From contig RPFO01000015.1 of the NCBI GenBank assembly GCA_009746045.1, positions 3,088,932 through 3,152,931 on the forward strand: a DNA stretch of 64,000 nucleotides, written 5' to 3'. Position 1 is the stretch's first letter, and every line of letters begins with the position of its first letter. Below, piece after piece: positions 29,001 through 63,683 of the stretch. The notes under the pieces were generated by a model. It was not told where the DNA came from, ran no database searches, and saw only the letters and a list, made by a program, of their open reading frames with translations. The position numbers were made by a program, and so were the translations under genes. This stretch comes from Mesostigma viride (Eukaryota > Streptophyta > Mesostigmatophyceae > Mesostigmatales > Mesostigmataceae).

Positions 29001-29009
29001 AGGGGTACT

Positions 29010-30407: not shown

Positions 30408-30418
30408 TAAGGGGTACT

Positions 30419-30952
30419 GAAGCAGGGGCAGTAACTCCTGATGTGACAACCTTGCCAGTTGGTCATGACGTCATCCCTGATCATCACGTTCCGGCTGGAA
30501 GTAATCCCCAGGTAAGTCCTGGCCAGACCCCTGGACCGGTTAACTTTCCAGATTTAGAACAGGCAGATGTGGTCCCCTCTAGCCTCACTAAGCATAGAGG
30601 TGTGGGCCTGAAAGATGTGGTGCTGGCTATGCAAAAAGCCAAGCAAAAGCCTCGGGTGTCCAAGCTCAGCCAGTTGGGGGAGTCCGAGTGCACTGCACCA
30701 GAAGTAGATACCAATGCAGAGGTCTCCATCATGGGGTCTCAGCATACAGGGCAGCGGCAGATTGGCAAGTCTAGCTGTTCCTGGGTGTCTGACTTTAGTG
30801 GCAGGGTTCATCTGAAAGTGGTAGGAGAAATCATCTTGCCATTTATGGGTGTAGATGTTTCCTTCCTAGTGCTGGAAGACTATGATGGATGGCCCTATCA
30901 TTTTGGGTCAGAACTTTCTTTGCACCCCTGGAGTTGTGGTTGTATCTCATAG
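30419..30952 (+). pseudogene. Copia-2 retropepsin-like segment after the integrase
   Basis: The frame 30443-30952 contains PEVDTNAEVSIMGSQ and, further on, VSDFSGRVHLKVVGEIILPF and MGVDVSFLVLEDYDG. It aligns block by block with the protease region of copia-1 (AVDTQASVSIISRRAA, VTDFAGTSAYQVTG, VLGIDTPFHVVDGYED). The position downstream of the integrase is unusual for copia. The frame ends at a stop next to the X-1 terminus. Confidence 0.7.
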
Positions 30953-37840: not shown

Positions 37841-39088
37841 TTACGGCGCCGGGCGGTAAGGGCTCGGGCGGTGACCCCCACGAGCGGAGCCCCCACGGCC
37901 ATGCCCGCGCAGAGGTGCGGCCGGGCGTTGACGCCGGTGGACACGCTCAGCCGGCGCGGCCTCAGCCGGCTCGGGAAGAGGCAGGCCATTGGCCTGGACT
38001 AGGGCGTGCTGGAAGGTGAGTTGCCGCTCGCCGGCGCGTGCATCATGGCGTTTGGCCAGGTTGACATCCCGCAGCGCCTCCAGTGGGAAAACGCTCAAGA
38101 AGGCGGCGAGGAACGTGTGTCGGGTGAGGGACACCGAACCTCCTGTCCAAACGATACCGCAGTGGTGGGTCCCGACAAAGGATGCCATGGCCTGGTCGAG
38201 GACAGACCGGGCGCCCCATGGGTCCGTGAACTGTACGGCAGAGAACATCTCTGGCGGGAGCACGTGCCGATAAAACTCCACCGGCTGATCCGCGTGAAAC
38301 CGCGGATGTGCAGCACCTGCATGGGCGCCGCCCGGGGTGTCCCCCGCGAGATCGTACATGATCCCGTCGATCACGTGGGTTGGGGCCACGATGCGGCGGC
38401 GCTCCGCAACCGGCACCGCCAGCGGCACGTCGACGTCAAGCTCCAGTAAGGACATGCCCTCCGGTTGCGCCAACTGAACGCCTAAGGTGGGACGCACCCT
38501 CACGCGGGCCCACACGAAACCCAGGGGGGCAGGCCCAGCATCGGCGCACATGACACGCACGCGAGCAATGGTGGCAGCCTGCGTACGCCGTAGAACCGTG
38601 GTTACAGTCGTGAAACGCCGGGGGCGCAGGACAGGGGCGGGCGGAATCGACCGAGGCACTGTGGTCGCGGCAGCGGGAGTAACCGATGCCGGGGCTTGCT
38701 GGGCTCCGAGGAGATGTTGCACCAAAAGAGACTGCTGTCGCAACATCTCTTGCAGCATATGTGACTGCTGCTGGAAAAGCTCGACCAGCTGGGGGGTACT
38801 AGCCACGGCGGCCGCGTTGGGAGCGTGGGCTCCACCCGCCAGCGCAGGCAACGCACCAGCAACCTGCCCCTGAGCCGGCTCAGCTGCCGTCCGCGGCAGG
38901 GGGGCGCTGCCGGGAGCGGTTGGACCCATCGCGCCGCGCTCACCAACCCCTGAGTCGCCCGCAGAGGAACTGTTGTCATCTGCCACCGCAGGGGATGCAT
39001 TTCCACCACCGGCGGTATCCGCACCGAATAACTCGATGTCGCCCATGGACTCCTGGGGCGGGGCGGCCTGCATCAAGGCAATGCACAT
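37841..39088 (-). CDS. Gypsy third ORF, unknown function
   Basis: It lies between the end of pol (stop at 39128) and the 3' LTR. The first ATG is at 39088 (MCIALMQAAPP), giving about 415 codons uninterrupted. The N-terminal third is low-complexity A/G/P. A glutamine-rich, probably coiled-coil stretch follows (QLVELFQQQSHMLQEMLRQQ). A central region with PVEFYRHVLPPEMFSAVQF and TRHTFLAAFLSVFP may be globular, and the end is basic (RGHGRGGSARGGHRP). It has no signal peptide or membrane span, so it is not a typical envelope protein. It has no zinc knuckle or retroviral motif; a second gag-like or RNA-binding protein is possible. The open frame in an element with a broken pol is notable. Confidence 0.65.
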   Translation of the reverse strand: MCIALMQAAPPQESMGDIELFGADTAGGGNASPAVADDNSSSAGDSGVGERGAMGPTAPGSAPLPRTAAEPAQGQVAGALPALAGGAHAPNAAAVASTPQLVELFQQQSHMLQEMLRQQSLLVQHLLGAQQAPASVTPAAATTVPRSIPPAPVLRPRRFTTVTTVLRRTQAATIARVRVMCADAGPAPLGFVWARVRVRPTLGVQLAQPEGMSLLELDVDVPLAVPVAERRRIVAPTHVIDGIMYDLAGDTPGGAHAGAAHPRFHADQPVEFYRHVLPPEMFSAVQFTDPWGARSVLDQAMASFVGTHHCGIVWTGGSVSLTRHTFLAAFLSVFPLEALRDVNLAKRHDARAGERQLTFQHALVQANGLPLPEPAEAAPAERVHRRQRPAAPLRGHGRGGSARGGHRPSPYRPAP

Positions 39089-39127
39089 GCAAGGAGCATT
39101 ACGCAAAAGGTAAGAGATGGGCCAGAA

Positions 39128-40786
39128 TTATGCCAACCCTGCCCGGGCTTTGTACTCCTGTAGCAAGCGTGCACAGCCCGTGAGTCCAGCCTCAGCTACC
39201 CATGAGTGCTCTAGCTCTGTTTGGGAGAACTTCCACTTAAGGAGGTACTCGCGGCGACGGCCTCGATTGCGGTGGGCTACAATGTCCTCCACCTCATCCT
39301 CGGGTTCGCCCGTCTCGGGGTTGAACTCCAAGGGGGCGGGTGCCATGACACGACCTGGGAAGGTGCTCTTGCGGTAAAGCTTAAGCTGGTCAACGTGGAA
39401 AACATTGGACTTCAGCTGCCACGAGTCCGGGATGGCGACAGACACCATCACCTCATTGAACACCTTCTCCACCAGATACGGTCCAAGGAATAAGGGGCGG
39501 AGCTTGACCTTCAGGCTGTCCTCGAACTTGTGCGAGAAGCGGCCTTGGTGGGGGCCCTCAATTAAAACCAAGTCACCTGCTTCGATTGCAGGGGTGCGCC
39601 TGTCCAGGGTACTTTGGACTCGCGCCATGTACTTGGCACGCGCCTGACGTAGGCCACTTATGGCGCTGGAATGAGCTTGCACCATCCGTTGTACCAGCTC
39701 CCGCGCCCCTGCGACTGTGGAGCGTAGCTCCGTTGTCGTGGTGATGGCTGGGGCGGTCAAGAGATCGGTGGGAGTAAGGGGATGCCTGCCTGTATCAAGA
39801 AAGAACGGGGTATACCCGTGGGCAGAATGGGGGGCATTATTGAGTGAAAACTCAATGAATCCCAGCACTTCGTCCCAATTCCTCCCGTCTCGATCCAGGT
39901 AGTGCCGCAGTGCCTCTTCCACCACCCGATTCACTCTCTCCACCATGTGAGAAGAGCTACTGTGATAGGCCGTACCCATAGACAACTTAGTCCCGACGAC
40001 CTGAAAAAATGAGGTCCAAAATTTTGACGTGAACAGTTTGTCCTTGTCGGTGATAAATTGTCGGGGCATGCCATGGAGCCGGAACACATTGTTTAGGAAC
40101 AAGTGGGCACACTCTTCAGCCGTCAGGGTGGCCTTGCAGGGGATTAAATGGCATCTCCGCGTGAGCCGGTCCACCACTACCAGGATCTGAGCATTGCCCG
40201 CCTTGGTCTCTGGCAAGGGCCCAATGAAATCCATCATCACCGAGTCCCAAGGGAACATGGGGTCTGGAATTTCCTTTGGAACGCCCTGTTTGCCCGTATT
40301 CCGTGGCTTCATGTGCTGGCAGCTGTCACAGGTACTGACATACTCCCGCACATCACGAGCCATCTTAGGCCAATAGTAGGACCTCCGGGCCCTCGCTAAC
40401 AGCCTATCCTGGCCTTGGTGTCCCCCCAAGACGGAGTCATGTAACTCAAATAATACCTCGGCGCGGCATATTTGGGGGACATACAAGCGCCATGAGTCTT
40501 GACGGGCCGCCTGGCCACTGACATTCACGTAAAGGAACCCGTTTTGAAACTTGGCTGGGTAGCCGTCCATGCTCTGAGGGCGGGCAGCTATGGCTTCATT
40601 TGCCTTGTCCTCAGTGACCGTGAAGCGCGAGATGAGGCGCTCTAGGTCCGAGCTGATGACGACCGTTGTTGCAGTATTTGCCAACGTGAATGCCTCTCCA
40701 ACGGGCTGCATTGGAGGGTAGACTCCTGTCGCCGGCACCATATGGCTGTACGGGGCCGAAGTCCTTCCCCCCCTGCGGCTGCGCAC
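39128..40786 (-). CDS. Gypsy integrase with C-terminal chromodomain
   Basis: The zinc site is HDSVLGGHQ ... CDSCQ. The catalytic triad is D in MMDFIGPLP, D in FITDKDKLF, and E in SHMVERVNRVVEE. The GPY/F-type module follows (LRPLFLGPYLVEKV). The C-terminus, EDEVEDIVAHRNRGRRREYL and LKWKFSQTELEHSWV, is a chromodomain, which marks the chromovirus branch and can guide integration to marked chromatin. The frame is shifted relative to the RNase H frame, with overlap at 40611-40786. Confidence 0.9.
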   Translation of the reverse strand: MRSRRGGRTSAPYSHMVPATGVYPPMQPVGEAFTLANTATTVVISSDLERLISRFTVTEDKANEAIAARPQSMDGYPAKFQNGFLYVNVSGQAARQDSWRLYVPQICRAEVLFELHDSVLGGHQGQDRLLARARRSYYWPKMARDVREYVSTCDSCQHMKPRNTGKQGVPKEIPDPMFPWDSVMMDFIGPLPETKAGNAQILVVVDRLTRRCHLIPCKATLTAEECAHLFLNNVFRLHGMPRQFITDKDKLFTSKFWTSFFQVVGTKLSMGTAYHSSSSHMVERVNRVVEEALRHYLDRDGRNWDEVLGFIEFSLNNAPHSAHGYTPFFLDTGRHPLTPTDLLTAPAITTTTELRSTVAGARELVQRMVQAHSSAISGLRQARAKYMARVQSTLDRRTPAIEAGDLVLIEGPHQGRFSHKFEDSLKVKLRPLFLGPYLVEKVFNEVMVSVAIPDSWQLKSNVFHVDQLKLYRKSTFPGRVMAPAPLEFNPETGEPEDEVEDIVAHRNRGRRREYLLKWKFSQTELEHSWVAEAGLTGCARLLQEYKARAGLA

Positions 40787-41654
40787 GTGCCCTCACGTGC
40801 AGGGGTGCTGCCGGCAGGCGCCCGGAATGGTCAACAGTGTCAACCTCCGCGGTTGTGGCGCCACAGAAGAGGAAGGGGCTCATCGGGTCGCTCAAGCGGT
40901 CGCCAAAGGGGGCGACGGGACCATGGGAGGGGATCAACGTCGTGGCCAAAACGTCAAGATCCTCATAAAACCAATAGTCGGGGCGACGCGACAGGGCGTC
41001 AGGGACCGTGTTGTCAAGGCCCTTGACATATTCGATCTTGAACGGACCGAACTGTGCCAAATATTCAAGCCAACGGGCTTGGCGTGGCGTAAGCGTGGGC
41101 TGCGTCAACAAGTGCGTGAGGGGCCGATGGTCGGTCTGGATGATCAAGCGGTACGGGTCCGCAGGGTCGGGTTCGGCCATGGCCACGTTGAACTGAGCAC
41201 CCAGAAGATGGTGCCGCCAAGTATGGCAACAGTACACCACGGCCAACAACTCTTGCTGATGGACCGGGTAATTTCTTTCGGCCGGGATCATCGTCCGGGA
41301 GATATACTCGACCGGTTGGAGACCGAGACCATGGTCTTGGAGCAGCACACCGCCAATAGCAACCTTGCTAGAATCGCTATTGACCACGAATGGCTTGGTG
41401 GGATCCGGAAGGATGAGGACAGGCGCAGTGGCGAGCCTGGCCTTCAGCAGGTCAAAGGCCTGTTGACACAGGCCTGACCATTCCCACGGTACGTCCTTCT
41501 TGAGGAGGTGAGTAAGCGGGGCCGCAATGGTCGCGAAACGCGGGATGAAGCGGCGATAATACGATACCAAGCCCAAGAAGCTGCGCAAGGCGCGAACATT
41601 CGCGGGAACAGGCCACTGTTGGACGGCGGCGACCTTATCGGGGTCCGTGGACAC
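40611..41654 (-). CDS. Gypsy RT C-terminus and RNase H
   Basis: It starts within the RT thumb (WPVPANVRALRSFLGLVSYY, RRFIPRFATIAAPLTHLL). RNase H follows: VNSDSSKVAIGGVLLQ, HQQELLAVVYCCHTWRHHL and IQTDHRPLTHLL. The connection motif VPDALSRRPDY is near 41000. The preceding frame ends at 41678 after SVPF. The sequence LLGHILSDKGV bridges the two only if one base is restored near 41690, so this is a frameshift mutation in the copy. Confidence 0.88.
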   Translation of the reverse strand: MSTDPDKVAAVQQWPVPANVRALRSFLGLVSYYRRFIPRFATIAAPLTHLLKKDVPWEWSGLCQQAFDLLKARLATAPVLILPDPTKPFVVNSDSSKVAIGGVLLQDHGLGLQPVEYISRTMIPAERNYPVHQQELLAVVYCCHTWRHHLLGAQFNVAMAEPDPADPYRLIIQTDHRPLTHLLTQPTLTPRQARWLEYLAQFGPFKIEYVKGLDNTVPDALSRRPDYWFYEDLDVLATTLIPSHGPVAPFGDRLSDPMSPFLFCGATTAEVDTVDHSGRLPAAPLHVRARAQPQGGKDFGPVQPYGAGDRSLPSNAARWRGIHVGKYCNNGRHQLGPRAPHLALHGH

Positions 41655-41677
41655 GCCCTTGTCCGAGAGAATGTGGC

Positions 41678-43165
41678 CTAAAAGGGGACGCTGCGGCCTG
41701 ATTCTACCTTGCTGCGGCGGGCGGACAGTTTATTATCCGCCATGATCTGCAAAACCGCGGCAACATCCTCCAAGTGCTCCTCGAACGTGCGAGAGAAAAT
41801 GAGGATGTCATCCAAGTAGATGGCCACGCAGGTGCGTTTGTACGGCTGCGTCCCCGGGTCCCACGGGATAGTCGGGTCGCGCAGGTCTGCCGAGACCTGG
41901 GGCAGCCGACTAGTGCCCATCACCGACCTAAAGAGGTGGTTCATGAGCATCTGAAAAGAGGCAGGGCTGTTACACAAGCCCATGGCCGCCACGCGGAATT
42001 GGTAATGGCCAAAAGGCGTGGCAAAGGCTGTTTTATGGCAATCTTCGGGGGCGATCCGAAGTTGCCAAAAACCGTCTGCACAATCGAGCACCGTAAAGTA
42101 CTTTGCGCCCTCCACCTTATTAAATATATCATCGATGCGGGGGAGGGGATACTTGGACTTCACGGTGATCGCATTGAGTTTGCGATAATCCGTAACCAGA
42201 CGCCACTTCCCATTGGGTTTGGGCACCAGCAACACGCCCGCGCTGTAAGGGCTATTGCTGGGCTCGATCAAGCCGGCCTCCAACAAGCCGACCAAGATCT
42301 TCTTGAGCTCTGCCAACTCCACGGGCCCCATGCGAAAAATGGGTGAGGTGGTAGGTGGGTGCCCCTCCTGCAAATGAATGCGGTGGAGCACCGGTCTGGC
42401 CGGGGGAAACGTAGGTGTTTTCTCCTCAAACACGGCTGAATACTGATCGAGCACTGCGTTGAGTCGTTTCACCTCGTCTTCCGACAAGTCCATGCCAAGC
42501 GAGTTTAACGAAACTCCAGCTTGGGCATGCTGGGCGCTGGGCCCGCGCGTGTGGGCAAGGGCGTCCAGACGAATGGAGTAAACGGGAGGAGGCTGTCGGG
42601 CTCTCATCATCCGCTTGAACTCCCTTTTGGACATGAGAATGTCCGCAAGGCGACGACGGTCACTCTTGAGGGCAGGCGTGTCATCGGTGATGGTCATGCC
42701 GTTGGCCGCATACTGCCGCTCAGGTAACCAGAATGACCCATCTGGGAAGTGGGTAACCATGGTACCAAAAGAGACGGTCACCTTGGATATGTGCAGCCAG
42801 TCAATCCCTAGGATGATATCAGCCGCTTGTAAGGGAATGACCGTGGCGCGAATGGGCACGCTGGTGCCTTGTACGATAGGGGCCAAGTCCGCATAGCCCG
42901 GGGATGGCTGAGTGTAGCCATCCGAGTATCGCACGCGCCGAGCAATGGTATGGGGAGTCGGGGTTACTCCCAGGCGCTGCACTATGGCCTCACTGACGAA
43001 GGTGGTAGCCGCACCACTGTCAATGAGGACCTTGATGCCCTCCAAACAACGCCCAGAGCCCTGGGGGTCTGGTAGGCTTCCAGTGAAGAGGAGTAGTTGC
43101 CGCGGGCCTTCGCTAGGCTCCGCTTGCCATTCCTGGGTCTCTGTCACCACATTACATGGTAACAA
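41678..43165 (-). CDS. Gypsy protease and reverse transcriptase
   Basis: The retropepsin has VLIDSGAATTFVSE, with DSGA as active site, and the IILGIDWL motif. The RT follows with LIEPSNSPYSAGVLLVPKP, KWRLVTDYRKLN, YFTVLDCADGFWQLRI (first aspartate), FGHYQFRVAAMGLCNSPASF and AIYLDDILIFS with YLDD. The frame begins about 60 bp after the gag stop in another frame. It is truncated by a frameshift at its end. Confidence 0.92.
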   Translation of the reverse strand: MLPCNVVTETQEWQAEPSEGPRQLLLFTGSLPDPQGSGRCLEGIKVLIDSGAATTFVSEAIVQRLGVTPTPHTIARRVRYSDGYTQPSPGYADLAPIVQGTSVPIRATVIPLQAADIILGIDWLHISKVTVSFGTMVTHFPDGSFWLPERQYAANGMTITDDTPALKSDRRRLADILMSKREFKRMMRARQPPPVYSIRLDALAHTRGPSAQHAQAGVSLNSLGMDLSEDEVKRLNAVLDQYSAVFEEKTPTFPPARPVLHRIHLQEGHPPTTSPIFRMGPVELAELKKILVGLLEAGLIEPSNSPYSAGVLLVPKPNGKWRLVTDYRKLNAITVKSKYPLPRIDDIFNKVEGAKYFTVLDCADGFWQLRIAPEDCHKTAFATPFGHYQFRVAAMGLCNSPASFQMLMNHLFRSVMGTSRLPQVSADLRDPTIPWDPGTQPYKRTCVAIYLDDILIFSRTFEEHLEDVAAVLQIMADNKLSARRSKVESGRSVPF

Positions 43166-43224
43166 AACGTGGGCGACTTGTTCATGGCCGGGTAAGGTGT
43201 CGCCCGGAGTGCCCTCCCGGCCTC

Positions 43225-44379
43225 TCAGTCCAACGCCTCTCCTGCAGGCCCCTCGTCCACCGGTGTGCCTCGCAGGTGGCCGGATGCGGCCGCGGAAGAG
43301 CCATCATCAGGCTCGGCCGCGTCTGCGGCATCCAGTTGGTTGAGGGCATGCCCAGCTTGCTGGTAGGCGCTTGGGGGCGCCTTGGGTTGTTGGTACAGCC
43401 GGGGCTGTTGGCGCGCTTGTTGCAAGCGTCGGGCACGCTCACCCGCACTGGGAGCTGTGCGCATATTTCGCGCCGGTGGTGGCCTCGAGGCCATTTGCGG
43501 GGAGGCCGCTTGGAAGTTGTTGCGTTGCACAGGCGGGGCCTGGTCCAGCGGAGGGAGATCAGGGCACTCACGTTTGATGTGCCCCACGCGGTTGCAGTGG
43601 TAGCACTGAATCCGGGAAGTGTCCAAGGCATTAATGTCCAGGACCTCGCACTGTAGCTCATCCACCCACACGGGGGCGAATCCCAGCTCATTGAGTTCCA
43701 GTGCATTCACGCGGGGTTTTGGGGTCCGCTGCACCAAGGGAGCTATCTCCGCTAGGTAGGTCTTGATGTCCTGCAGGTTCCATTGAGCCCAGGAGAGGTG
43801 GGCGAATTTCCGCTTCACCTCATCCCGGAATTCGGGTTGCAAGCCCTCATAGAACCTTGCCAAGGCTTCTGGGCCCATCAGGTCATCAACCCGCCCAGCT
43901 AGAAGCTCGAACTTGGTCATATATTCCCGATAGCTCAGGTTCCCCTGCTTGAACGCCCCAAAAGCCTCCCGGTCCAGCTTGTCTTGGTCGGGTGGCAGGT
44001 ACTTGGCCCGTGCTCGCCAAAATAATTCAGCCAAGCTGCTGGGGAAGCCATTGGCCAGGGCGCTTTCGCAATGGAGAGCTTGTCTCACATCGGGAGCCAG
44101 TGCCTCGCTGGACACCAGCTTGACCTTGATATCCTCGTCCAAGAGCTTGCGATTGTATGTCTCCCAGATGTCGATCTTCTGAGACACTGCAATCTCCCAA
44201 GCCTCAAACTCTTGGTACGAGCAGTCGGGTTTAAACTTGGGAATATCCGACAGCTTGGGCAACGGTGGTAGTCGCCCTGCATTGTGAGTATCATCGTCAT
44301 GATGGCCCATGATACTCGCGGGTCTCCCGGGCCTGGCCACACCTTGCGAGGTGTGCCCACGCGGGTAACCTGCGGGGGG
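43225..44379 (-). CDS. Gypsy gag, C-terminal part
   Basis: This continues the gag frame broken by copia-1 at 44380. The core has YQEFEAWEIAVSQKI, YLPPDQDKLDREAF and LARFYEGLQPEFRDEVKRKF, features of the retrotransposon capsid (Retrotrans_gag). The zinc knuckle is CYHCNRVGHIKREC. The tail is rich in Q, A and P. There is no methionine near the copia junction; the true N-terminus is at 51259. Confidence 0.88.
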   Translation of the reverse strand, partial: PPAGYPRGHTSQGVARPGRPASIMGHHDDDTHNAGRLPPLPKLSDIPKFKPDCSYQEFEAWEIAVSQKIDIWETYNRKLLDEDIKVKLVSSEALAPDVRQALHCESALANGFPSSLAELFWRARAKYLPPDQDKLDREAFGAFKQGNLSYREYMTKFELLAGRVDDLMGPEALARFYEGLQPEFRDEVKRKFAHLSWAQWNLQDIKTYLAEIAPLVQRTPKPRVNALELNELGFAPVWVDELQCEVLDINALDTSRIQCYHCNRVGHIKRECPDLPPLDQAPPVQRNNFQAASPQMASRPPPARNMRTAPSAGERARRLQQARQQPRLYQQPKAPPSAYQQAGHALNQLDAADAAEPDDGSSAAASGHLRGTPVDEGPAGEALD

Positions 44380-44724
44380 AGTTGAGTAACTCTAGAGCCC
44401 TAGGATCTGGCTCTAAGTTCCCCATGTCCGTCCGCACGCCTCCCGCTAGCGTCCGCTAAGCCGCCGGCTATAATCCGGCGGTCCGACGCGGGCGACCGGT
44501 CTAAGGGCGGCGCCTAGGGCCGGCGCCACCTAGGCCCCAGTCCGGGGCCTTATCCGGGTCAGTACGGACGGCTAGCTTGTCCCACGGTTACGGCTAACCG
44601 GATAGGGTTTGCTGGCTAAGACATAAACCAGTGGTGGGCCAGCTCCGACGGTAGTTCTCTGTGTTCACCTTATCCCAAGCTCAACGTGACCGACCGCCAT
44701 AGCTGAGCCGGTCGGGCTTTAACT
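44380..44724 (+). repeat. Copia-1 5' LTR
   Basis: This 345-bp LTR starts AGTTGAGTAACTC and ends GGGCTTTAACT. The inverted ends AGTT/AACT replace the usual TG/CA. It matches the 3' LTR at every position compared. The gag ATG lies only 19 bp downstream, leaving little room for a leader; a clear primer-binding site was not assigned. Confidence 0.93.
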
Positions 44725-44743
44725 TGTATTCATAAAAATCCCG

Positions 44744-46525
44744 ATGGCTTCCGGTACACGGAGCCGCACGGGCGAACACACAGATACGCCAAGTGGCGAG
44801 GCCGCAGGGTCCGTCCTGCCACGCTTTAGTGCGGACGAGGCCACGAGGTTGATGCAAACCCTCGTGGCGCAACCGGAACTGGCCAAGCAGTTCAAGCATC
44901 TCATGCTGGCTGCTGACGATGCACTAAATCGCGGCCCTCTCAAGCAAACGGAGGTGCCCGCAGATCTACCGGCCGACTATACGGCGGACGACGCAGCAGA
45001 TTTTCTAGCTGCTCTCAAGCGTCTGCGCGATGGACGCGCAGACAAAGATTCGGAGCTGATTGGCAAGTTCCGTGCAGTATTCTGCAGTACAACAAAGCAC
45101 CCAAACATTGCCAATCTAGTTCGCATTGCGGACGACAACAAACAAACCTGGGAAGTTTTTTACAACGGTCTAGATGCCCACTTGTCGCGGTCTAAGGAAG
45201 AGGCCGACGAGCAAGCCTTCAACGACTTCGAGGGCTATGCAGTTAATAAGGCAAATTTGCCCGGGGCTGCACGTGATTTCCAGGTCTTCGTGCACAAGCA
45301 CAAGCTGCTAGATACTCTCAAGCCCATTTTCCTGTGCAATCGCTTTCTCAAGAAATGCGACCTGTCGTCGGATGTGCATCTGACCATAGCGACGGAACTC
45401 AAAAAGAAGAGTGCCGTCAGTTTCGACGAGGGCATGCTGTATTTGATTTCATGCTTCAAGAGTGCGCAGTCCAAGCCGGCTGCCTCGGCTGCTCTGCCAT
45501 CCCTGCGCAAGGTGGATGCCGGCGCGTCTTCTTCTTCAGGCGCAGAGGCTCCAATTACGCGGTCGGAGCTTACGGCCATCCTGAAAAAGGTCGTCGGCCA
45601 CGGCAACAACGGGGGCCAGCGAGGGCGCAAGCGCGGGCATGGTGGCGACGCCAAGCAGGGTGATCATCCCCCGGCCAAGCGGCAGCAGGGGGCGTCTACT
45701 GACCGCAAGCAACGCTGTGAGCGCTGCTTCGGACGTCGCCATGTCCGGGATGACTGCCGAGTTCGCCCGGACCTGGAGCTCGAGGACAACCTTTGCCGCA
45801 AGTGCCACGACGTTCTGCGTGGTCACAGCGTGGAGGCGTGCAAGGCCAAGCGCATCGTCGTCCACGGCACACGCGAGGAGTGGGCAGAGCGACGGGCAGC
45901 ACGAAAGTCAGGTGAGAGCACGCTCGATACCCCTTCTTTTGCTCAATGCGTCACGCTGAACCGGGCCGTCGTAGAGCCTGACGTCGTTCCTAAAAGCAAC
46001 GTGACTGCATCCTCTGTCTCATTCCGTGATGTGCTCACGCAATCCGTTGATGCTGCTCTGGCTCTGTCGCGCCAGGATCACGTGCTTCCTGAGCACGGGT
46101 CTACAATGCGTGACCTAAGCAATGTGGTGTCTTCTAGGTCGGGTGTGTACAACGCCGAGCGACCAAGCACTACTGCAGCACCCCAGCTAGATACTGGGGC
46201 GGTTGGGCCTATGAGGAATGTTGTGACAGTGCAAGAGAATGCTGGGCGGGCAGATGTTCTCGGTACACACCACCCTAGTGTGGATCTTCACATTGGCAAG
46301 GTGCTCACACGGGCGGCCTTTCGTGCAGCCTCTGAAGCTGCCCAGTTAGCCAATGTCACTACCCCAGTAGTCACCCCACCTGTTGAGAATCCTGACAATG
46401 CCACTGCACCTCAGGCTGTCACCCTGAAACTGTTAGCATACCAGATGCACCGTGCATACGGGCATGAGGCCCAAGCCGAGGTAGAGGGGGCACACATGTT
46501 GGGGCACCTTTATACAACGAGCTGA
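44744..46525 (+). CDS. Copia-1 gag and pre-integrase zinc region
   Basis: This 593-codon frame starts MASGTRSRTGEHTD. The capsid-like part runs to about residue 240. Two zinc motifs follow: CERCFGRRHVRDDC (C-x2-C-x4-H-x4-C) and CRKCHDVLRGHSVEAC. The end holds MHRAYGHEAQAE, the histidine half of the HHCC site of copia integrases. The cysteine half (CPAC) lies in the next frame, so a -1 shift near 46500 is needed to complete the site. A lone LDTGAV near residue 485 is not set in protease-like sequence. Confidence 0.88.
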   Translation: MASGTRSRTGEHTDTPSGEAAGSVLPRFSADEATRLMQTLVAQPELAKQFKHLMLAADDALNRGPLKQTEVPADLPADYTADDAADFLAALKRLRDGRADKDSELIGKFRAVFCSTTKHPNIANLVRIADDNKQTWEVFYNGLDAHLSRSKEEADEQAFNDFEGYAVNKANLPGAARDFQVFVHKHKLLDTLKPIFLCNRFLKKCDLSSDVHLTIATELKKKSAVSFDEGMLYLISCFKSAQSKPAASAALPSLRKVDAGASSSSGAEAPITRSELTAILKKVVGHGNNGGQRGRKRGHGGDAKQGDHPPAKRQQGASTDRKQRCERCFGRRHVRDDCRVRPDLELEDNLCRKCHDVLRGHSVEACKAKRIVVHGTREEWAERRAARKSGESTLDTPSFAQCVTLNRAVVEPDVVPKSNVTASSVSFRDVLTQSVDAALALSRQDHVLPEHGSTMRDLSNVVSSRSGVYNAERPSTTAAPQLDTGAVGPMRNVVTVQENAGRADVLGTHHPSVDLHIGKVLTRAAFRAASEAAQLANVTTPVVTPPVENPDNATAPQAVTLKLLAYQMHRAYGHEAQAEVEGAHMLGHLYTTS

Positions 46526-46530
46526 AGAAT

Positions 46531-47526
46531 GTGCGTGCTCAGTGTCCTGCCTGCATCAAGATCAGGAAGAAGTCGCGTAGGCGGCATGCCAAGACTCCAC
46601 CCTTGGAGCGAGGGTACCTTGTGGGGGATGTCATGCACATGGAAGGGGGGGACACCTATTTCATAGTCAAGGATAGGTTCAGCAAGGCCACCTACATTGA
46701 GCCGCTGCCTCACATGTTTGAGGCTGACCTGCACAGGGCTATCAAGATCAGCCTGGCTTTCTTTCATCCCGTAGTGGAGCTCATGCTAGACCAGCAGTTC
46801 CGCTGTGTGCAAGGTTTGCCGGGGATGGAGGCCGTGGTCATCGTGGGGCGTGAGGATCACGGCAATATGGGCATGATAGATCGCACTGTAAGCTATGTCA
46901 AGACTGTGGCAGCCAAGCGACAGGATAACCCACATGGCAAATCCTACGCGGTCAAGACGGCGTGGTGCAAGGAGCTCATGCATGTGTGCAACCATAGGCA
47001 CGTGCTTGATGTCAAGGGCTTTGGGCTAGTCACGCCTCGGGGGCTGTCAGCGGGCACCTACTCACCCGAGGTAGTAGAGGCATACCAACAGCATCTACAG
47101 GATACCGCCGCCAAGCTGCGGCTCAAGGATGCCACGCTGCCTGATTTGTCTAGCGCTTTTGAGGTCGGGCAGTTGGTCATGTTCCACAAGGAGAGCTCGC
47201 CCAGCGGCAAACGGGGCACCATGCAGGGGCCTGGGGCCATCACAAAGTTAGACTGGCCGCTGCGGGTCATAGACATAGAGTGGAATGATCGGGTGTATAG
47301 GGTACCATGGGCATCGGTGGCAGGCTATAAGCAAGGGGATAGCATGGAGAGTGAGCTGGCAGCCAACAGGGCACTGGGGTGGGTAGTGAAGGATAATGCG
47401 CCTGTCGTAGCATCTGAGGTGGTACCCCACGGGTCGCTCCCAGGGGCAGACACAGCTACACCCCCCCCTCCCCTGGGCCCCAATATGACCCCGTGGATGG
47501 GTGGGATGAGGATGGGGTGGGTTTGA
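46531..47526 (+). CDS. Copia-1 integrase
   Basis: The frame opens with VRAQCPACIKIRKKSRRR, completing the zinc site. The catalytic core begins GYLVGDVMHMEGGD (first D), followed by KDRFSKATYIEPL. The second D is probably in ELMLDQQFRC. The block aligned to the catalytic glutamate reads HGNMGMIDRTVSYVKT, with D where copia-2 has E (HGSQGVVERTIRELKT). A C-terminal SH3-like part follows (SSAFEVGQLVMFHKESSPSG, VYRVPWASV). The frame overlaps the next one by 34 bp in a -1 relation. Confidence 0.8.
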   Translation: MRAQCPACIKIRKKSRRRHAKTPPLERGYLVGDVMHMEGGDTYFIVKDRFSKATYIEPLPHMFEADLHRAIKISLAFFHPVVELMLDQQFRCVQGLPGMEAVVIVGREDHGNMGMIDRTVSYVKTVAAKRQDNPHGKSYAVKTAWCKELMHVCNHRHVLDVKGFGLVTPRGLSAGTYSPEVVEAYQQHLQDTAAKLRLKDATLPDLSSAFEVGQLVMFHKESSPSGKRGTMQGPGAITKLDWPLRVIDIEWNDRVYRVPWASVAGYKQGDSMESELAANRALGWVVKDNAPVVASEVVPHGSLPGADTATPPPPLGPNMTPWMGGMRMGWV

Positions 47527-49811
47527 CGGGACCTAGTGCACGTAGTGACTCACCTCCTGTGCTAGCCACGGATAATGTGGGAGGCCCGCCTAGCGTGGCC
47601 TCGCCGGAGGGTCAGGGTCCTGCCCATGCGCCTCGCCCACCTAGGGACCTGGCTTCAACGGTCACGGCCTTGTGGCGTGCTCAGGCGCTTAAAGCGAAAG
47701 CTGCATCAGGGGTGGCTCAGGTCAAAACTCTCTCACAGGGGGTCAGGCCGGTTAAGTCAGCCTTGTTTCCTACGTGTAGACCGTGGCAGCTGGTGGCTGT
47801 GGACACGCAAGCATCCGTGTCTATTATCTCTCGTCGGGCAGCCACCCTGTATCCAGTGCTAGAGTCGCCGTACAAATCGGTGACCGACTTTGCAGGCACT
47901 TCGGCATATCAAGTTACCGGGATGGTGGTGCTGCCGGTGTTGGGCATTGACACGCCGTTTCACGTCGTGGATGGCTACGAGGATGTGGCCTTGCTGGGCG
48001 AACCTTTCGTATCATACCCGGGGTTCTCAGTGTCCGCTGACTTGCTGTCAGTCGCGGGGGTGGGCAGCATCCCGCTTCGCGAGTACCACGCTCCATTGGG
48101 GGTGGTGGTCGGGCAGCCCGGCGTCGTGCGGCGCTTACCGATGGCGGCGTTTTCCACACCGCCGCTCGTCCAGTCCATCATTCAGCCTCAGGATTGGCAC
48201 CCGCGCAGCTTCGGCCTCCACTCACACTCACTGGCGGCGGATAGCCCTGTGACGTGGGAGCAACTTGTCCTGGACTGTCAAGATCCTCTCAAGTTTGCTT
48301 TGTGGCGCGACGCGTTCATTCGAGCCAAGGAGCAGTGGCGAGAGCGCGAGGTCTACCGAGGATTGGAGAGTGTGCCAGCCGGGGCCACGCGGTTGCGGTT
48401 GAAGTTCGTGCTCACCTACAAGCCGGACGAGACCAACTCTTCGGTGGTGTTCCGGGTAAGGCCCGTGGTCACGGAGACGAAGGGGTCCTCCCCGCTGGAC
48501 GCCAAGGATCTTTATACCCCTGGGCTCAACCATGTTTCGCATCGGCTACTGACGGTCATCTACTTGGGCAAGCGGAACGCGGGCAAGGACTACGGGATGT
48601 GGTGCGGTGACTTTCAGCGGGCATTCCTCCACAGCGACGCTGGGGTCGCGCAGCAAACATGGCAAGGCACCCGCTACGTGGTGAAGGTCCCGGTGGTCTG
48701 GCAGGATGGCACCATTGGCAGCGAGTATATCGAGCTGTTGACAGGGGTGGAGGGGCTGCAGAGCTCTCCCATCATCTTCCGCATTTCCGCGGAGGAGGTC
48801 TTGCAGAGCTTAGGGGCCACGTACCATCGCGCGGATCCTAACTTCTTTGTGGTCCCCACCGGCGTCCCTGGCGAGCCAGCCCTCTTCGTGTGGCATGGCG
48901 ATGACTTCAAGCTGGTGGCACCTCGCACCTTTGCTACCCAGTTTCTTGCTGCAGTGGCGGCTAAGTTTCCCCTGGGCAGGGCGGTGGATCATGAGGAGGG
49001 TAAACCCGTGGTGTTTTGCGGCGTGCAGTCTACGTTGCAGCGGGATTCGCGTTCTGGCGAATGGGTCATGCACATGCAGGATAGCCGCAACTATGTGGTT
49101 GACCTGCTGGCCGACCTCCCGTCCCCGCTGTTGGCAACCCATGGGCCCTCGGTTAAGGGCAAGCTCGGGTGGTTGGCGGACACGGTGGCACCTGATTTGG
49201 CGGTGCTCGCTCGCCTGCCCGATGATGTGCTGGAAGGACTAGGGTCCATTCATGTTCGGCGGCAGCTGGCCATGACGCCCGGCATTGTGCTTCGTGGGCT
49301 CGATTGCTCACAGCCGGTGCACCTCGAGATAGTGACGGATGCTAATCTAGAGACGCGCACAGTCAGCCAAGTGCGGGCCCGCATGGGGGCACTGTTCTTT
49401 ATTAGCAATGAGGGACAGCCTGGCATGTTGTTAGATTGGTACTCGCGCTTGCACAGCCGCATTGCCACTAGCCCCAACACGGCTGAATGCCGGGGCATTG
49501 TTTCAGCTATCTCACATGGCATGTGGCTGCGGTACTTGCTGGGTTGGGTATTTGGCTCGTGTGGGTTCACTCTTCACTGGACTAGCACGGTGCACACTGA
49601 CTCACAAAGTTGTTTGGCCTTCCTTGACAATCCCTATGCGCGGTCACAGGACGTTGATTACCTCGTACTCGCTGAGGCGGCCTCCTGCGTCACGCGTCTC
49701 CAGCACATCGCGGATGAACTCAATCCCGCGGATGCACTCACCAAGGAGGCGCGGGAGGCTGCCCCGCAGTACGCAGTGTTGCGCAAGCGCATGACGATGC
49801 AACACCCGTGA
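47493..49811 (+). CDS. Copia-1 protease, reverse transcriptase and RNase H
   Basis: In this 772-codon frame residues 97-180 look like a retropepsin: WQLVAVDTQASVSIISRRAA (DTQA in place of DSGA) and VALLGEPFVSYPG as the second-lobe motif. The copia RT follows with VFRVRPVVTETKGSS, YGMWCGDFQRAFLHSD (first catalytic D), LLTGVEGLQSSP, and FVWHGDDFKLV, where HGDD replaces the usual YVDD. RNase H runs from LEIVTDANLET through TSPNTAECRGIV and TVHTDSQSCL to HIADELNPADALTKEA, the classic copia ending. The frame is fully open. Confidence 0.9.
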   Translation: MDGWDEDGVGLTGPSARSDSPPVLATDNVGGPPSVASPEGQGPAHAPRPPRDLASTVTALWRAQALKAKAASGVAQVKTLSQGVRPVKSALFPTCRPWQLVAVDTQASVSIISRRAATLYPVLESPYKSVTDFAGTSAYQVTGMVVLPVLGIDTPFHVVDGYEDVALLGEPFVSYPGFSVSADLLSVAGVGSIPLREYHAPLGVVVGQPGVVRRLPMAAFSTPPLVQSIIQPQDWHPRSFGLHSHSLAADSPVTWEQLVLDCQDPLKFALWRDAFIRAKEQWREREVYRGLESVPAGATRLRLKFVLTYKPDETNSSVVFRVRPVVTETKGSSPLDAKDLYTPGLNHVSHRLLTVIYLGKRNAGKDYGMWCGDFQRAFLHSDAGVAQQTWQGTRYVVKVPVVWQDGTIGSEYIELLTGVEGLQSSPIIFRISAEEVLQSLGATYHRADPNFFVVPTGVPGEPALFVWHGDDFKLVAPRTFATQFLAAVAAKFPLGRAVDHEEGKPVVFCGVQSTLQRDSRSGEWVMHMQDSRNYVVDLLADLPSPLLATHGPSVKGKLGWLADTVAPDLAVLARLPDDVLEGLGSIHVRRQLAMTPGIVLRGLDCSQPVHLEIVTDANLETRTVSQVRARMGALFFISNEGQPGMLLDWYSRLHSRIATSPNTAECRGIVSAISHGMWLRYLLGWVFGSCGFTLHWTSTVHTDSQSCLAFLDNPYARSQDVDYLVLAEAASCVTRLQHIADELNPADALTKEAREAAPQYAVLRKRMTMQHP

Positions 49812-50189
49812 GCCACACAGGGTTACGGCTCGGGCGCTTTATGAATACAGCCATAACTCACCCTGTGTTGCTAGCATTCACGAATATCATGGTGGTAGTT
49901 TTTTTTGCTTGTCCTGACCATACCCTAGCCACGTTGGACGGTGCCTTGGGCCCGTCGGCGGGTCACTGGTCCTAATAAATGGGTCACCTTTTGTCTGGTG
50001 GCATAGTTGTTTTTTTCTCGATACTTATTACATCACTATTCATGTGTGATCACAAGGGCGCGGGTCGATACCGTGGTGATTTTGACGGCCTTGAGGCCCC
50101 CTTGAGTTCCCTACCTTAGAGGGTTTTGTATGGTCTGCATTTGATGTAATTATTTTGATAATTAATCAAAGAACAAAAGAGTATGTCGG
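49812..50189 (+). other. Copia-1 3' untranslated region before the LTR
   Basis: This is non-coding sequence between the RNase H stop and the 3' LTR. It ends with AATCAAAGAACAAAAGAG, a purine-rich stretch that may serve as polypurine tract about 10 bp before the LTR. Confidence 0.6.
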
Positions 50190-50534
50190 AGTTGAGTAAC
50201 TCTAGAGCCCTAGGATCTGGCTCTAAGTTCCCCATGTCCGTCCGCACGCCTCCCGCTAGCGTCCGCTAAGCCGCCGGCTATAATCCGGCGGTCCGACGCG
50301 GGCGACCGGTCTAAGGGCGGCGCCTAGGGCCGGCGCCACCTAGGCCCCAGTCCGGGGCCTTATCCGGGTCAGTACGGACGGCTAGCTTGTCCCACGGTTA
50401 CGGCTAACCGGATAGGGTTTGCTGGCTAAGACATAAACCAGTGGTGGGCCAGCTCCGACGGTAGTTCTCTGTGTTCACCTTATCCCAAGCTCAACGTGAC
50501 CGACCGCCATAGCTGAGCCGGTCGGGCTTTAACT
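50190..50534 (+). repeat. Copia-1 3' LTR
   Basis: Identical to 44380-44724 by eye. The element side reads GTATGTCGG before AGTT, and the flank side begins GGGGGGCTGC, continuing the gypsy gag sequence. Confidence 0.93.
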
Positions 50535-51259
50535 GGGGGGCTGCAATCATCCTCACCCGGGTGCTCATACCCATGTGGGTAGTGGGCGCGGCTTGCATAA
50601 TGATGGGCGGCGGTGGCCGCTGGGTGCTGCGCTCGTGGGTCACCCGGAGCCAGGCGGTCGTATGCTGAGTTGGGGAGGGGAATCGCCTCCCCTGCGACCC
50701 CGAAGGAAAACCGACCGGTCCGTGCGGTGCCATGGCCCTGCCCAGCCATATTTGGCGAGGCATAGCCGAAGGGGCTAGCCCCAAGGGGTCCAGGCGCATG
50801 ATAGGACGCCCGATTCGCAGCGCGGCGAGACCGCGATCGGCTATCATACAAGGGTGGCGCCGGGGCGCTGCTGGGCCAAGTGGCCAATGTAGGTTGCGGC
50901 AGCACCGTAGGCAGGGCCCCACTCCTACCGTAGTGCAGGGTAACATTATTCCCCTGCGTCCCCGCGCCGGCTCCTACACCAAGGGCCGGACCCGCCGACA
51001 ATCCCGCGATGGATGTTCCACTAGGTGGTCCATTAAGGGGATTCACTACGGGGCTATCAGGTGGTGCACCGGCAGCCGCCGAGGAATTCCCTCCCAAACG
51101 TGGGGTTTGTGCTGGGGATGACCCCCTAGAGCCACGCTCACTACTCGGGCGTGAGTGATTTTGGGTAGCTCTCTCTGCCGCCTCGAGTGCTGCCACGAGG
51201 GAAGGGGCAGGAGAGAAGCGATGGGCCTCTCGTCGCCCTCGCTCAATACCGTCAGCCAT
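50535..51259 (-). CDS. Gypsy gag, N-terminal part
   Basis: It starts MADGIERGRREAH at 51259 and runs about 240 codons of low-complexity A/S/P/G-rich sequence to GEDDCSPP. Copia-1 interrupts it there, and the frame resumes at 44379 (GYPRGHTSQGVARPG). The full gag would be about 620 codons. Long disordered N-termini are common in chromovirus gag proteins. Confidence 0.82.
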
Positions 51260-59597: not shown

Positions 59598-62500
59598 TTA
59601 AGTCGGTGCCGGCCCCTCCGGGGCTTCATCCTTGATCACCAGCGTAGTAAGCCACTTGTCGAGCTCCTTGCTCATCCTGATGTCGGCACACATTCCGTCG
59701 CTGCGCACGCGTGCTTCTAGCCGGAGAGCCGGAGCGACGCAGAGATAGCAATTCACAAGCTCGGGCTGGCGTGACGGTGGCCAATCCTCAACGTTGAGCG
59801 TGAAATGCAGGGGGTCATGCTTATCCCGCTTCCAAATCCGAACGGGAAGAATGCCGTTCCCGGCGAGGAACAGCTCCTTCTCCCGTCCGTTCCGGCCCTC
59901 GACCCACCTCTCGAAGTTCTCGTCTAACACGATCGGCCCGGCTTCGCTTACAACCTCAGCCAACCAGAACGGGTGGATGGGATCGTGATCCGTGTCCTTG
60001 TCCGATGGAACTGCCACATAGTCGTGGAGTCTCATCTGCCGGCCCATCGCCTCCCGCTTGTCCTTCAGCTGCTCCCCCCGCGTCACCATGCGAACCGGAG
60101 GGTTGGGCTGGCTCGGTGGCAGCAAACGGACAGTTTTCATCGAGCTTCCTGCATCATTGAACTCGATGATAAACGACCACTCGCTTAGACATCCCTCAAA
60201 CCGCCCAGCCAAACAGGGCGGACAGTAGCAGGAATAGCGCCTAATCATCAAAAGGCCAGGGTCGGACTTGTCCAGTCGCCACCAATGCGCCTTCTTGATG
60301 CCAGGCACCTCCTCAACCTCCGCGCGTCGGCCGGACTCGACGTCCTGTCATCAAATAGTTAGGACAAAAAGAATACCGTTCAAATTAGCAAAATTGACCA
60401 AAAACCAATAAAACAGGGTATAGCTGCAGAGAGACCCCTTAAAAAAAAATTAACGACAAGACATCAAGTGATCAAAATTCGACACAGGGTATAGCTGCAG
60501 AGAGACCCCATTCGAATCATAATAACAACGTACGACAAGATATCAAGTGATCAAAATTCGACACAGGGTATAGCTGCAGAGAGACCCCATTCGAATCATA
60601 ATAACAACGTACGACAAGATATCAAGTGATCGAAATTCGACACAGGGTATAGCTGCAGAGAGACCCCTTCATACCGAAAGAACAAGCGAAATTTCATACC
60701 TAAAAGAAAAGCAACCCATGGACAGTATATAGGGTCTCTCTGCAGAGATACCTTTATTGGGTTTGAATTTTTATAGAACAGCGGCAGTTGACGTCTTAAA
60801 ACCTGAAATAACACAAAATTCCGTACCGGGGGTAAAAGGAAGAAGTGGCGAGTGACGTTCTCGGCCCGCGCGCGGGCCGACTCCCTGCTCGATGTCTTGC
60901 CGCCCTGCCAGTTCTGGTTCAAGTAGGCGACTAGCTGGTGGGTCTCAAGTATGTGCTGGTTTTCGGGAATCCTCTGCATTTCCCTCAAGACGCACTTGCA
61001 CTTCGCTCCTTGACCATCCACCTCCCCCTTCCCATGCTGCTCCCCCATGTAGTGGAACTCAAAGGCCTGCAGGTCGGGATCCCCCATGAGCAGACCGTTA
61101 ATCTGGTTAATCACGTACCTGGACTTAAACTGCACCGCGCAGTTGTCCGAGCACATGTACAGGTTTCGCACCTCTACCCCTACTTCTACCCGCAGGGTTT
61201 CCAGAATCTTGCGAAGAGCGTATACGAGTGCGCGCTCGCCCCGCTTGATACTGGAATCCCCCAGGAAAAAGAAGACGCGCTTTTCCAGCTCGCCGTTGAG
61301 CCGATAACGCACGATCATGGGCATCAGGATGTGGCTGCGCTTGTGGAAGTACTGCGACTGCAGTTGGACGTAGCTGCTGTTCTCGTAGTTCTCGGCCCAG
61401 TCGCCGTGCACGAGCACGTCCCCCTCTCTCAGATTCTTCTCCCGATCCTTGATTGTATCCGCCTGCGACCAGGCCGTAAAGCAGTGCACGGTGAACTTGT
61501 CCCACATCTTAAGAATCTCGTCCCGCAGCTCAGCTGGGGTGGACCTCATTTGGACTTGCTCGGGCCGCTTCACCTTCTTCGCCGCCCTGCCATCGGTCTC
61601 GCCCTGTTTCGCAAAGGTCCGCAGACAGTTTCGATTTGCAATAAAATCGCATTTCGATAAGATAACTGCAACTCACAAAGGGTCTCGCTGCAGCTATAGG
61701 TCACAAAAAAAAAAGTCAACAACATATTAACGGAGAAATAAAATCGAAACCAACTCACATTCACCCGTCGGGTCACAGTCTGCTCCACCATCTCGAACTT
61801 GAACCAATTCAGAATCTCCGTGGAATTCTTGTCCCGATCACACTGCACCCAGTTATTATGGATGCCGCATGATTCCTCAGGACAGAACCCCTCCACACAC
61901 GCCATCTTCAGTATGCGGTGAACCCTCTCCGTCCTCGGCACCCCATCTTCGTCCTCCACCAGCCTCTCAGAAATGTCGAGGTCTTCCAGGTCCCGTCCCC
62001 GCCATTCATCTTCCCCCTCCCCCTCTTCCATCCCCCCGCCCATTCCGCCCCCTTCACGCAGCCCGTTATCCCTGCCGTCAGTCTCGGCGGACACCGGGCA
62101 GTGAAAGTGCTTGATCCAGTCCGTCGAGTGAATGGCTTTCCACATTCCGCAAGTACCGTCCGGCTCTCTGTACTTGGAGCATCCCGCACACTCCGCGCCA
62201 CACTTGCAGTTCTTGCCGTGGTTCGCATTGGAGTGCTTGGTCCACGCCCCCATGGCCGACTGCATGGTGACGTGCTTCTCACACGCGCACAGGTTCCTCT
62301 CCTTCCACTTGCCCTTGATGCAATCGGGCGCGTATTTGCAGAAGGTCGTGTAGCCCACGTGAATGCCCACGTCCTTATCATACTGGTTACTCCTTTTGTT
62401 CCAGTACGCATGCTTTTCGAGAAAGTGATTGTACATGTCCTCCTTGGAGGTCATGTAATAGCGCGCTCCCTCAACGGCGACGAGCACCCCGTGATTGCCA

Positions 62501-63683
62501 CGACCCTCCCTGCTGTAAGTGCGCTTGACATCCTTCATCTGGGAGGAGGCGCGCGACTCATCATCGTGCATCCACGCGTCCACTATCGCGTCAATCACGA
62601 ATTGCGGCAAAGGGCGCCCCTTGCGAGCCTGCGCGTGTCTGAGGTAGTCCAACTTCTGCTGCCTTCGTATCGCGCGAATTCCGCGAATCTTCTTGGCGTC
62701 CATCCCCGTCAGGTTCTCCAACTCCGCGGCCGAAAACTCCTTCTCCAAGTCGTCACCACAGTAAAGCGTGGACATCAGCACCATCCTGACGTCTCTGTCT
62801 GCGTCGCTTTTGGTCAGACCATCAAAAAAGCCGTTAATCCGAGCCACCCAGAACCTGTTCAGTTCTGCCATCCGCTCCTGATTGTAAAGCTTTTTCGCCT
62901 CCTCATGATACTTCCCGTGACCTAGTTCAGCGGCCCTAGAGTTAAAGCCAGCAATCATCTGGTCGAAAGCCGGCCCCCGCCCCTCGGGTTTTGTCATCGC
63001 CTGAGCCGCTTCAAACGCCTGGTCAGCGAAATATTCCCCAATAACCCTCTTTGATTTCGAGTATTCTCCCGGCCGCTTGACTTCCTTGGCTTCAGGCTGC
63101 GCTGGATTCTGGTTCTCATCTCCGAAAACCCTTTTTGCGCCAGTTGACTGCTTCGTCCCGGTGTTCAACTTAATTGCACTGAATCCTGGACGACCGGACG
63201 CAAGGGCGAAAACTCCCACCCGTTCGCGTGCTGCATGCCATGACGACCGGCACAACGAAATCCATGCAAATCGAGTATCGTTGGGAAAAGCGACAATTAC
63301 AGACAAAGTTCGAAAGTGTATCATTTTTTACCACGATTGGGGTCTAGCTGCAGCTAGACCCTTAGAGGGGCTTTTTCCGTTAGACGAAAAGATTACCTGA
63401 TGTGGTGAACTTAGCATACCCCGACCAAGATTGGGGTCTCGCTGCAGCTAGACCCTTCATTGCGGCGTGCGATTGTTAAATCACAGACTTCTGATTCATT
63501 AATTTTATAGCAACCATAAAGAGGGTCTAGCTGCAGCGAGACCCTTGAATTTAAGCTATAGCTTGTGGTTATAAATGGTCTAGCTGCAGAGAGACCCCAA
63601 TAAGGACGAAAAGATTTCAGGTTTTCCTCACCTTCGCGGCTCATTCTCTTATTAGTTCTCCCAGAACACTCAGATACCTGCAT
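59598..63683 (-). CDS. DDE-transposase-like protein, 4 exons, 1000 residues
   Basis: Exons on the minus strand: 63683-63632, 63185-61759, 61603-60827, 60344-59598. All junctions are GT-AG and the phases agree (total 3003 nt). Exon 1 alone codes only MQVSECSGRTNKRMSRE and is the least certain; the frame is open further up to 63324 if exon 1 is wrong. A Cys/His-rich zinc region spans about 330-400 (FCKYAPDC, CACEKHV, CKCGAECAGC). Next come HGDWAENYENSSYVQLQSQ (about 559-579), FFFLGDSS, YMCSDNCAVQFKSRYV (D about 646), and HYMGEQHGKGEVDGQGA (about 677-693). Spaced acidic residues in these blocks suggest an RNase H-fold DDE catalytic core. The last exon has VPGIKKAHWW and CYCPPCLAGRFEGC. Similar proteins with SDGCAAQYKNR and HGKG motifs are abundant in animal and algal genomes as transposon genes; I do not assign a superfamily. 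Confidence 0.7.
60417..60752. repeat. Five CTGCAG palindromes in intron 3 of the X-2 gene
   Basis: Copies at about 60417, 60487, 60566, 60645 and 60732 read GGGTATAGCTGCAGAGAGAC or close variants, 70-87 bp apart. Shared spacer sequence (CAAGATATCAAGTGATC) separates the middle copies. All lie within the 482-bp intron 60826-60345. Confidence 0.85.
61679..61700. repeat. CTGCAG palindrome in intron 2 of the X-2 gene
   Basis: GGGTCTCGCTGCAGCTATAG lies inside the 155-bp intron 61758-61604. It is the only repeat in that intron. Confidence 0.8.
63339..63598. repeat. Four CTGCAG palindromes in intron 1 of the X-2 gene
   Basis: Copies at about 63339, 63433, 63522 and 63577 include one perfect 22-bp palindrome (GGGTCTAGCTG plus reverse complement). 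All fall within the predicted intron 63631-63186. Even if the first exon is wrong, they lie outside the coding frame. Confidence 0.85.

Follow-up and report, generated by a model that had tools for sequence, protein, structure and literature searches.

A copia-related long terminal repeat retrotransposon lineage of Mesostigma viride with a retropepsin-like domain between integrase and reverse transcriptase

Results

The copia-1 element and its copies

The stretch analysed here, hereafter the window, comprises 64,000 nucleotides (nt) of the Mesostigma viride genome (assembly GCA_009746045.1, contig RPFO01000015.1, positions 3,088,932 to 3,152,931 of the forward strand), and our subject is copia-1, a long terminal repeat (LTR) retrotransposon on its plus strand, in which a retropepsin-like protease domain (PR) lies after the integrase (IN) and before the reverse transcriptase (RT) and RNase H (RH). 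The three open reading frames (ORFs) of copia-1 were re-read and confirmed at 44744-49811. The first (44744-46525) carries gag, two zinc knuckles recognized by eye, a spacer and the first half of the HHCC motif, and its gag matches that of a related family in the same genome, here called the P0002 family (E 9e-11). The second half of HHCC, a catalytic core and a C-terminal beta domain follow at 46468-47523, and were assigned to the integrase by motif alignment and by structure comparison of a weak model. The third frame (ORF3, 47493-49811; 772 residues) carries the retropepsin-like domain at 47784-48101, having a DTQA motif at 47802-47813 and an LLG motif (structure comparison and family alignment), and continues with a copia-like RT and RNase H at 48240-49808 (DFQRAFLH, HGDD and ADALTK; motifs and hhalign).

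These frames are flanked by an exact direct repeat of 347 nt, of which 345 nt constitute the LTR once the target duplications set the ends. The 5' LTR (44380-44724, reading AGTTGAG...CTTTAACT) and the identical 3' LTR (50190-50534) are bordered by the target duplication GGGGG, at 44375-44379 on the left and 50535-50539 on the right, as delimited by comparison of copy ends. Copies were sought in 440 Mb of genome sequence (2243 contigs), and both ends were located in 14 of 20 genome copies of copia-1, five of the 20 having no 5' LTR at the expected place. With the window copy added, 11 of the 15 copies with both ends showed a 5-bp target duplication, and the one P0002-family copy read in this way had one as well (ACGCT). 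LTR termini in the copia-1 copies and in that P0002-family copy were AGTT..AACT, not TG..CA. ORF3 was encoded at 100% identity in all 58 scored places, i.e. in at least 58 places of the genome, and the copia-1 family has therefore spread very recently.

With ORF3 as query, a protein search of a 5.8-billion-sequence set found two matches, which both belong to the Mesostigma viride gene set, and the same pair was recovered with a profile. The integrase had three matches in that set, one from Mesostigma viride and two labelled Prorocentrum lima. The latter two, P0005 and P0006, are near-identical to copia-2 (a second, broken element in the window) and copia-1, respectively; they are probably the result of cross-contamination, with transfer as the alternative.

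Integrase precedes the retropepsin-like domain in four families

A sequence-only reading of the window had proposed that the DTQA block of copia-1 follows the integrase, that copia-2 carries a matching block in the same place, and that such an arrangement in two diverged copies is a lineage trait rather than one rearrangement. The block of copia-1 does lie there, in the 47493-49811 frame and between its residues ~97 and 203. For copia-2 the order held and the coordinates did not: tblastn against the window placed its integrase remnant at 28518-28919 (E 1.3e-10) and, on the same plus strand, its DTNA block at 30704-30886 (ORF3 as query, E 2.4e-6; also aligned with intact relatives), so that the frame at 30407-30952, where the integrase had been put (30419-30952), carries the protease block instead. 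A LINE-type (long interspersed nuclear element) RT fragment, recognized by eye at approximately 28970-29927, is inserted in the broken copia-2 between integrase and protease.

A survey of the genome identified three families related to copia-1 (27-61% protein identity) that have IN-PR-RT-RH in a single uninterrupted frame. In the P0002 family, which is 46-47% identical to copia-1 across PR-RT-RH, an open frame of 1249 residues starts upstream of HHCC and extends through RNase H. An intact member of the copia-2 family (L111) and a member of a fourth family (L112), with frames of 1198 and 1196 residues, both read HHCC, IN, DT-x-A, RT and RNase H in that order; the fourth family is 68% identical to copia-2 in the integrase piece. 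At least 150 places in the genome matched in the search for the copia-2 and fourth families, many with frames of 1196-1198 residues. Since the order is seen within single open frames, the trait is demonstrated without joining frames; the order gag-IN-PR-RT-RH is real and is a trait of the lineage, as the sequence-only reading had held.

Retropepsin-like domain

The active-site motifs in the four families are DTQA, DTMA, DTNA and DTNA, and the D, T and A, together with the V-S that follows, are invariant. The pattern DT[Q/M/N]A is accompanied in all four by F-x-G and [IL][IL]G motifs. Structure prediction of the segment, one of the checks the sequence-only reading had proposed, gave a low-confidence model (mean predicted local distance difference test score, pLDDT, of 54), for which 22 of the first 26 Foldseek matches, and 50 of 50 VIA matches among those listed, were retropepsins. 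The low-confidence models and the conserved D-T-x-A together suggest a retropepsin-like domain, with protease activity as a prediction.

Integrase

The integrase model, built for the second frame of copia-1 with its P0002-family counterpart and the copia-2 piece, had a mean pLDDT of 42. Foldseek comparison with the PDB returned 129 matches at E <=0.001 (best E 3.8e-9), and among the matches listed all 50 were retroviral integrases, with the low template modelling scores (~0.2) expected of so uncertain a model. In the motif alignment, copia-1 and the P0002 family share the acid motifs GDVMH(M/L)E, MLDQQF and HGN-x-G-x-IDR. The third catalytic acid is thus D in these two families, whereas the copia-2 and fourth families retain E (GVVER). 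These comparisons support the prediction that the second frame encodes an integrase. Pfam searches of the copia-2 pieces gave only weak sub-threshold matches to Agenet and to domains of unknown function; the Agenet match falls in the C-terminal part of the integrase (window 28875-28955, E 0.00068; residues 399-425 of the L111 pol, E 0.013), which might be a Tudor-like, chromatin-reading tail.

Reverse transcriptase and relation to copia

When a profile of the lineage RT was compared by hhalign with the copia RTs of the genome, 211 columns were aligned at E 2.6e-4 (probability 42%), and a single copia RT gave E 0.001 (probability 21%). The controls aligned far less well, with E 0.098 (probability 0.6%) for the LINE RT of the window, and E 0.25 (probability 0.2%), with no alignment of the RT, for the neighboring gypsy polyprotein, a single gypsy element. 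One of the two intact relatives, L111 and L112, also had a sub-threshold Pfam match to RVT_2 (E 0.076). Ordinary copia elements are present in the same genome, with at least 150 RVT_2 matches above cut-off, and the two that were read upstream of the RT have gag, protease and integrase in that order; in one of them (L109) Pfam Pol_BBD precedes the integrase core. The copia label given to copia-1 thus holds for the RT, which profile comparison suggests is copia-like at modest probability, and fails for the domain order, the TG..CA LTR ends and the copia-type protease. Because a copia-like RT is combined with a non-copia order, non-copia LTR ends and a different protease motif, we class these elements, on sequence grounds, as a new copia-related lineage that is not filed in Ty1/copia.

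Frames and expression of Gag-Pol

In single copies of the P0002, copia-2 and fourth families, pol lies in the frame of gag, and between the two stands one UGA codon with C as the next base (L071, 2428-2430; L111, 1767-1769; L112, 1848-1850). UGA-C is a leaky stop, and in these three families the junction is likely a readthrough site. The integrase and PR-RT-RH frames of copia-1 are in a -1 relation and share 106 nt (47418-47523). A C-run there includes a slippery-type heptamer at 47463, and none of the 18 copies with full indel lists (of 20) has an indel in the overlap.

Gag and integrase are in different frames in the window copy. By frame arithmetic they are in one frame at this junction in 16 of the 20 other copies, seven of which have a further single-base indel inside the integrase; two copies resemble the window copy, and two are too diverged to assess. 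A programmed shift between gag and integrase was considered and dropped, since the frame change varies among copies and is not read as a lineage trait. The single-base indels between copies may in part be assembly errors.

Primer binding site and its complement in the 3' untranslated region

The primer binding site (PBS) position of copia-1, the 20 nt that follow the 5' LTR (44725-44744, TGTATTCATAAAAATCCCGA), lacks the TGG start expected of a site for a transfer RNA (tRNA) 3' end. Seventeen of these 20 nt are complementary to 49830-49849, a stretch of the 3' untranslated region (3'UTR) that lies 18 nt past the stop of the third frame and that we propose as a self-primer; the first 12 nt, counted from the LTR border, pair unbroken with 49838-49849. 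Among 400 random 20-mers drawn from within copia-1, one reached 11 nt of pairing and none 12. All 20 copia-1 loci compared have the same 3'UTR stretch, and the PBS is likewise unchanged in all five copies read (the window copy and L078-L081). TGAATAC occurs in the element only at the 3'UTR site, and the match between PBS and RNA start that characterizes Tf1 was not found.

In the P0002 family a different 3'UTR stretch, also soon after the pol stop and identical in 30 of 30 loci, takes this place. The PBS was located in 17 of 27 regions, and the pairing spans 10 nt in 15 of these sites, 11 nt in one (L095) and 23 nt in one (L071). The LTR border marks the exact limit of Watson-Crick pairing in copia-1 and in the P0002 family alike. 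Over its 23 nt the L071 site matches the complement of the 3'UTR stretch with no mismatch, and its flanks are like those of other copies.

These observations suggest that minus-strand synthesis may be primed by RNA from the element's own 3'UTR. In our reading, an RNA ending ...TGAATACA would be cut from the 3'UTR to serve as primer, and the L071 site would be the footprint of plus-strand synthesis that copied further into it than usual; L071 is a single insertion, and gene conversion of its PBS is a possible alternative origin.

Discussion

Weighing the alternatives

Several of our results weigh against the readings given above. Both structural models are of low confidence (pLDDT 54 and 42), the best Foldseek E for the protease is 0.11, and its VIA Z scores (<=6.0) are in a range the tool calls common. 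The profile search that the sequence-only reading had proposed for the protease segments found no retropepsin in Pfam, and support for the assignment came from fold-level comparison: there was no Pfam match in the three frames of copia-1 even at E 10, nor in P0002 or the cut segments, and because all copia-1 frames are blank at so permissive a threshold the test has no power here. A profile search of the PDB with the protease gave ribosomal uS2 as its top match (E 0.065), other PDB sequence searches gave chance-level matches or none, and hhalign of the protease profile against gypsy (E 0.23) and copia (E 0.13) proteases yielded nothing significant. The hhalign probabilities for the copia RT are modest, target duplications are missing from four of 15 copia-1 copies, and both ends were found in only 14 of 20 genome copies. 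Several places show single-base indels that not all copies share, and the near-identical transcript protein P0006 reads integrase and protease in one frame, so that the frameshift of copia-1 may be an artefact or a variant; it is possible that the homopolymer frame relation itself is a variant or an assembly effect. Complementarity between PBS and 3'UTR was not found in the stretches read of the copia-2 and fourth families, whose LTRs are not delimited (none were found within the stretches of L111 and L112). Finally, a hairpin around the 3'UTR stretch, which we do not claim, beat shuffled sequences only in the short cut of copia-1 (z -2.5 for 73 nt, -0.5 for 111 nt; 0.3 and 0.5 in the P0002 family).

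That the domain order is a rearrangement or an assembly error of one element could draw on the gag/IN frame change of the window copy and on the varying indels, and is refuted to the point of having practically no chance of being right by the four families, each at many places, that share the order, three of them in one frame. It is very improbable that an ordinary copia protease sits between gag and integrase, the DT-x-A block being a second, unrelated domain. A DTGA string does occur in copia-1 between the zinc knuckles and HHCC, at residue 483 of ORF1, but a VLG string follows after only 25 residues, a span into which a retropepsin would not fit; D[ST]GA is absent from the 127 residues between the gag stop and HHCC in the P0002 family, and the similarity between the two spacers starts downstream of the string, which therefore reads as chance. 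Judged by that motif, the intact P0002-family spacer shows no clear protease, which would have spoken against the sequence-only reading, and Pol_BBD, which the ordinary copia L109 has at this place, was detected by Pfam in neither L111 pol nor L112 pol. A further alternative retains the retropepsin fold as a relic, serving as a spacer or dimerization module between integrase and RT while something else performs maturation. None of the four families keeps the usual active-site Gly of DTGA, having Q, M or N instead, which makes an inactive domain possible, and no sequence profile recognizes it; the invariance of D, T, A and V-S is, however, what a working site would be expected to show, and by eye no other protease candidate was seen in these polyproteins. 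Foamy virus protease uses DSQA, and we regard a relic as improbable. Neither the D[ST]G[AS] pattern of retropepsin active sites nor the copia pattern DTG(C/A) (PMC5445492) occurs in the four families.

For the paired PBS and 3'UTR, the alternative is that pairing only circularizes the RNA and that a host RNA is the true primer. The CYC5-CYC3 interaction of Ty1 is a long-range 5'-3' RNA pairing without priming (PMC4974528), and only 10 nt are paired in 15 of 17 P0002-family sites. Against circularization alone stand the pairing of both families, which stops precisely at the LTR border, and the 23-nt complement of L071, which sits between ordinary flanks as if the RNA had been copied by plus-strand synthesis. 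We consider circularization without priming less likely than not, and retain priming from the 3'UTR as our reading. Tf1/sushi elements are known to self-prime, and the same has been predicted for the TAR and Tcn1 lineages of plants (PMC6317226); in Tf1, the 11 nt at the start of the element RNA act as primer (PMC7175516). No description of a 3'UTR self-primer, nor of the order IN-PR-RT, was found in the literature searched, which covered few subscription journals.

Relation to known elements

With Ty1/copia, the lineage shares an integrase upstream of RT, the copia-like RT, ADxxTK at the end of RNase H, and the 5-bp target duplication described for GalEa (PMC5445492), seen here in the 11 of 15 copia-1 copies and one P0002-family copy. 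It departs from Ty1/copia in having its protease after the integrase, where PMC6317226 gives gag-PR-IN-RT-RH; in LTR ends of AGTT..AACT; in the lack of a recognizable copia-type protease; in the third integrase acid, D rather than the E of DDE in the copia-1 and P0002 families; and in the copia-1 primer site, which does not have the tRNA-type TGG start. Ty3/gypsy, BEL and retroviruses likewise have the protease directly upstream of RT-RH, with a similar retropepsin-like end and [IL]LG motif, whereas integrase in the copia-1 lineage lies before the protease and not after RNase H, and its RT is not gypsy-like. As in Tf1/sushi, some 10-12 nt of the PBS, reaching to the LTR border, can pair with RNA of the element itself, but the complement lies in the 3'UTR after pol in copia-1 and P0002, in contrast to the RNA start in Tf1 (PMC7175516). 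LTR ends other than TG..CA also mark Troyka as an independent lineage, which differs in its CG..CG ends, 3-bp duplications, its author's placement of it as sister to the Gypsy plus retrovirus group, and its reported occurrence in animals (PMC12440569).

Proposed cycle and significance

Taken together, copia-1 is, with good probability, a recently active copia-related LTR retrotransposon with a pol of IN-PR-RT-RH, and with expression and priming steps that we propose as follows. Gag-Pol would be made as one chain, by readthrough of UGA-C in the P0002, copia-2 and fourth families, as the frame relation suggests, while copia-1 might use a -1 shift at the C-run between integrase and protease, where an indel variant is possible. 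The retropepsin between integrase and RT, to judge from its fold and conserved D-T-x-A, would cut itself and its neighbors free. The minus strand would start from the 3'UTR stretch whose 3' end pairs up to the LTR border, and the integrase would insert the cDNA, making the 5-bp target duplications that are observed.

LTR superfamilies are defined by domain order. That the order IN-PR-RT-RH, the non-copia retropepsin, AGTT..AACT ends, the gag-UGA-pol junction and priming by a cut 3'UTR segment together denote an undescribed lineage, possibly of superfamily rank, is a tentative suggestion to which we give somewhat less than an even chance. A survey of 80 green-plant species discarded elements with unexpected order as likely wrong predictions (PMC6317226). 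The pol of the copia-1 lineage reaches the cut-off of no Pfam model, in spite of the lineage being abundant and recently active, and order filters and profile searches would therefore miss it. Its existence implies that an element with its protease behind the integrase can go on spreading, and the pairing of PBS and 3'UTR in two families, along with the copied-in footprint, makes 3'UTR self-priming directly testable.

Neighboring features of the window

On the minus strand, 37841-44340 and 50480-51259 belong to an element of Ty3/gypsy type, in which gag, a DSGA-bearing PR, RT, RNase H and integrase were recognized by eye; copia-1 seems to have inserted into it. The same gypsy gag is found in the flank of the P0002-family copy L071 (1-748). 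Farther downstream in the window, two long open frames lie on the minus strand at 60596-63324, the longer of which has Cys-rich clusters visible by eye.

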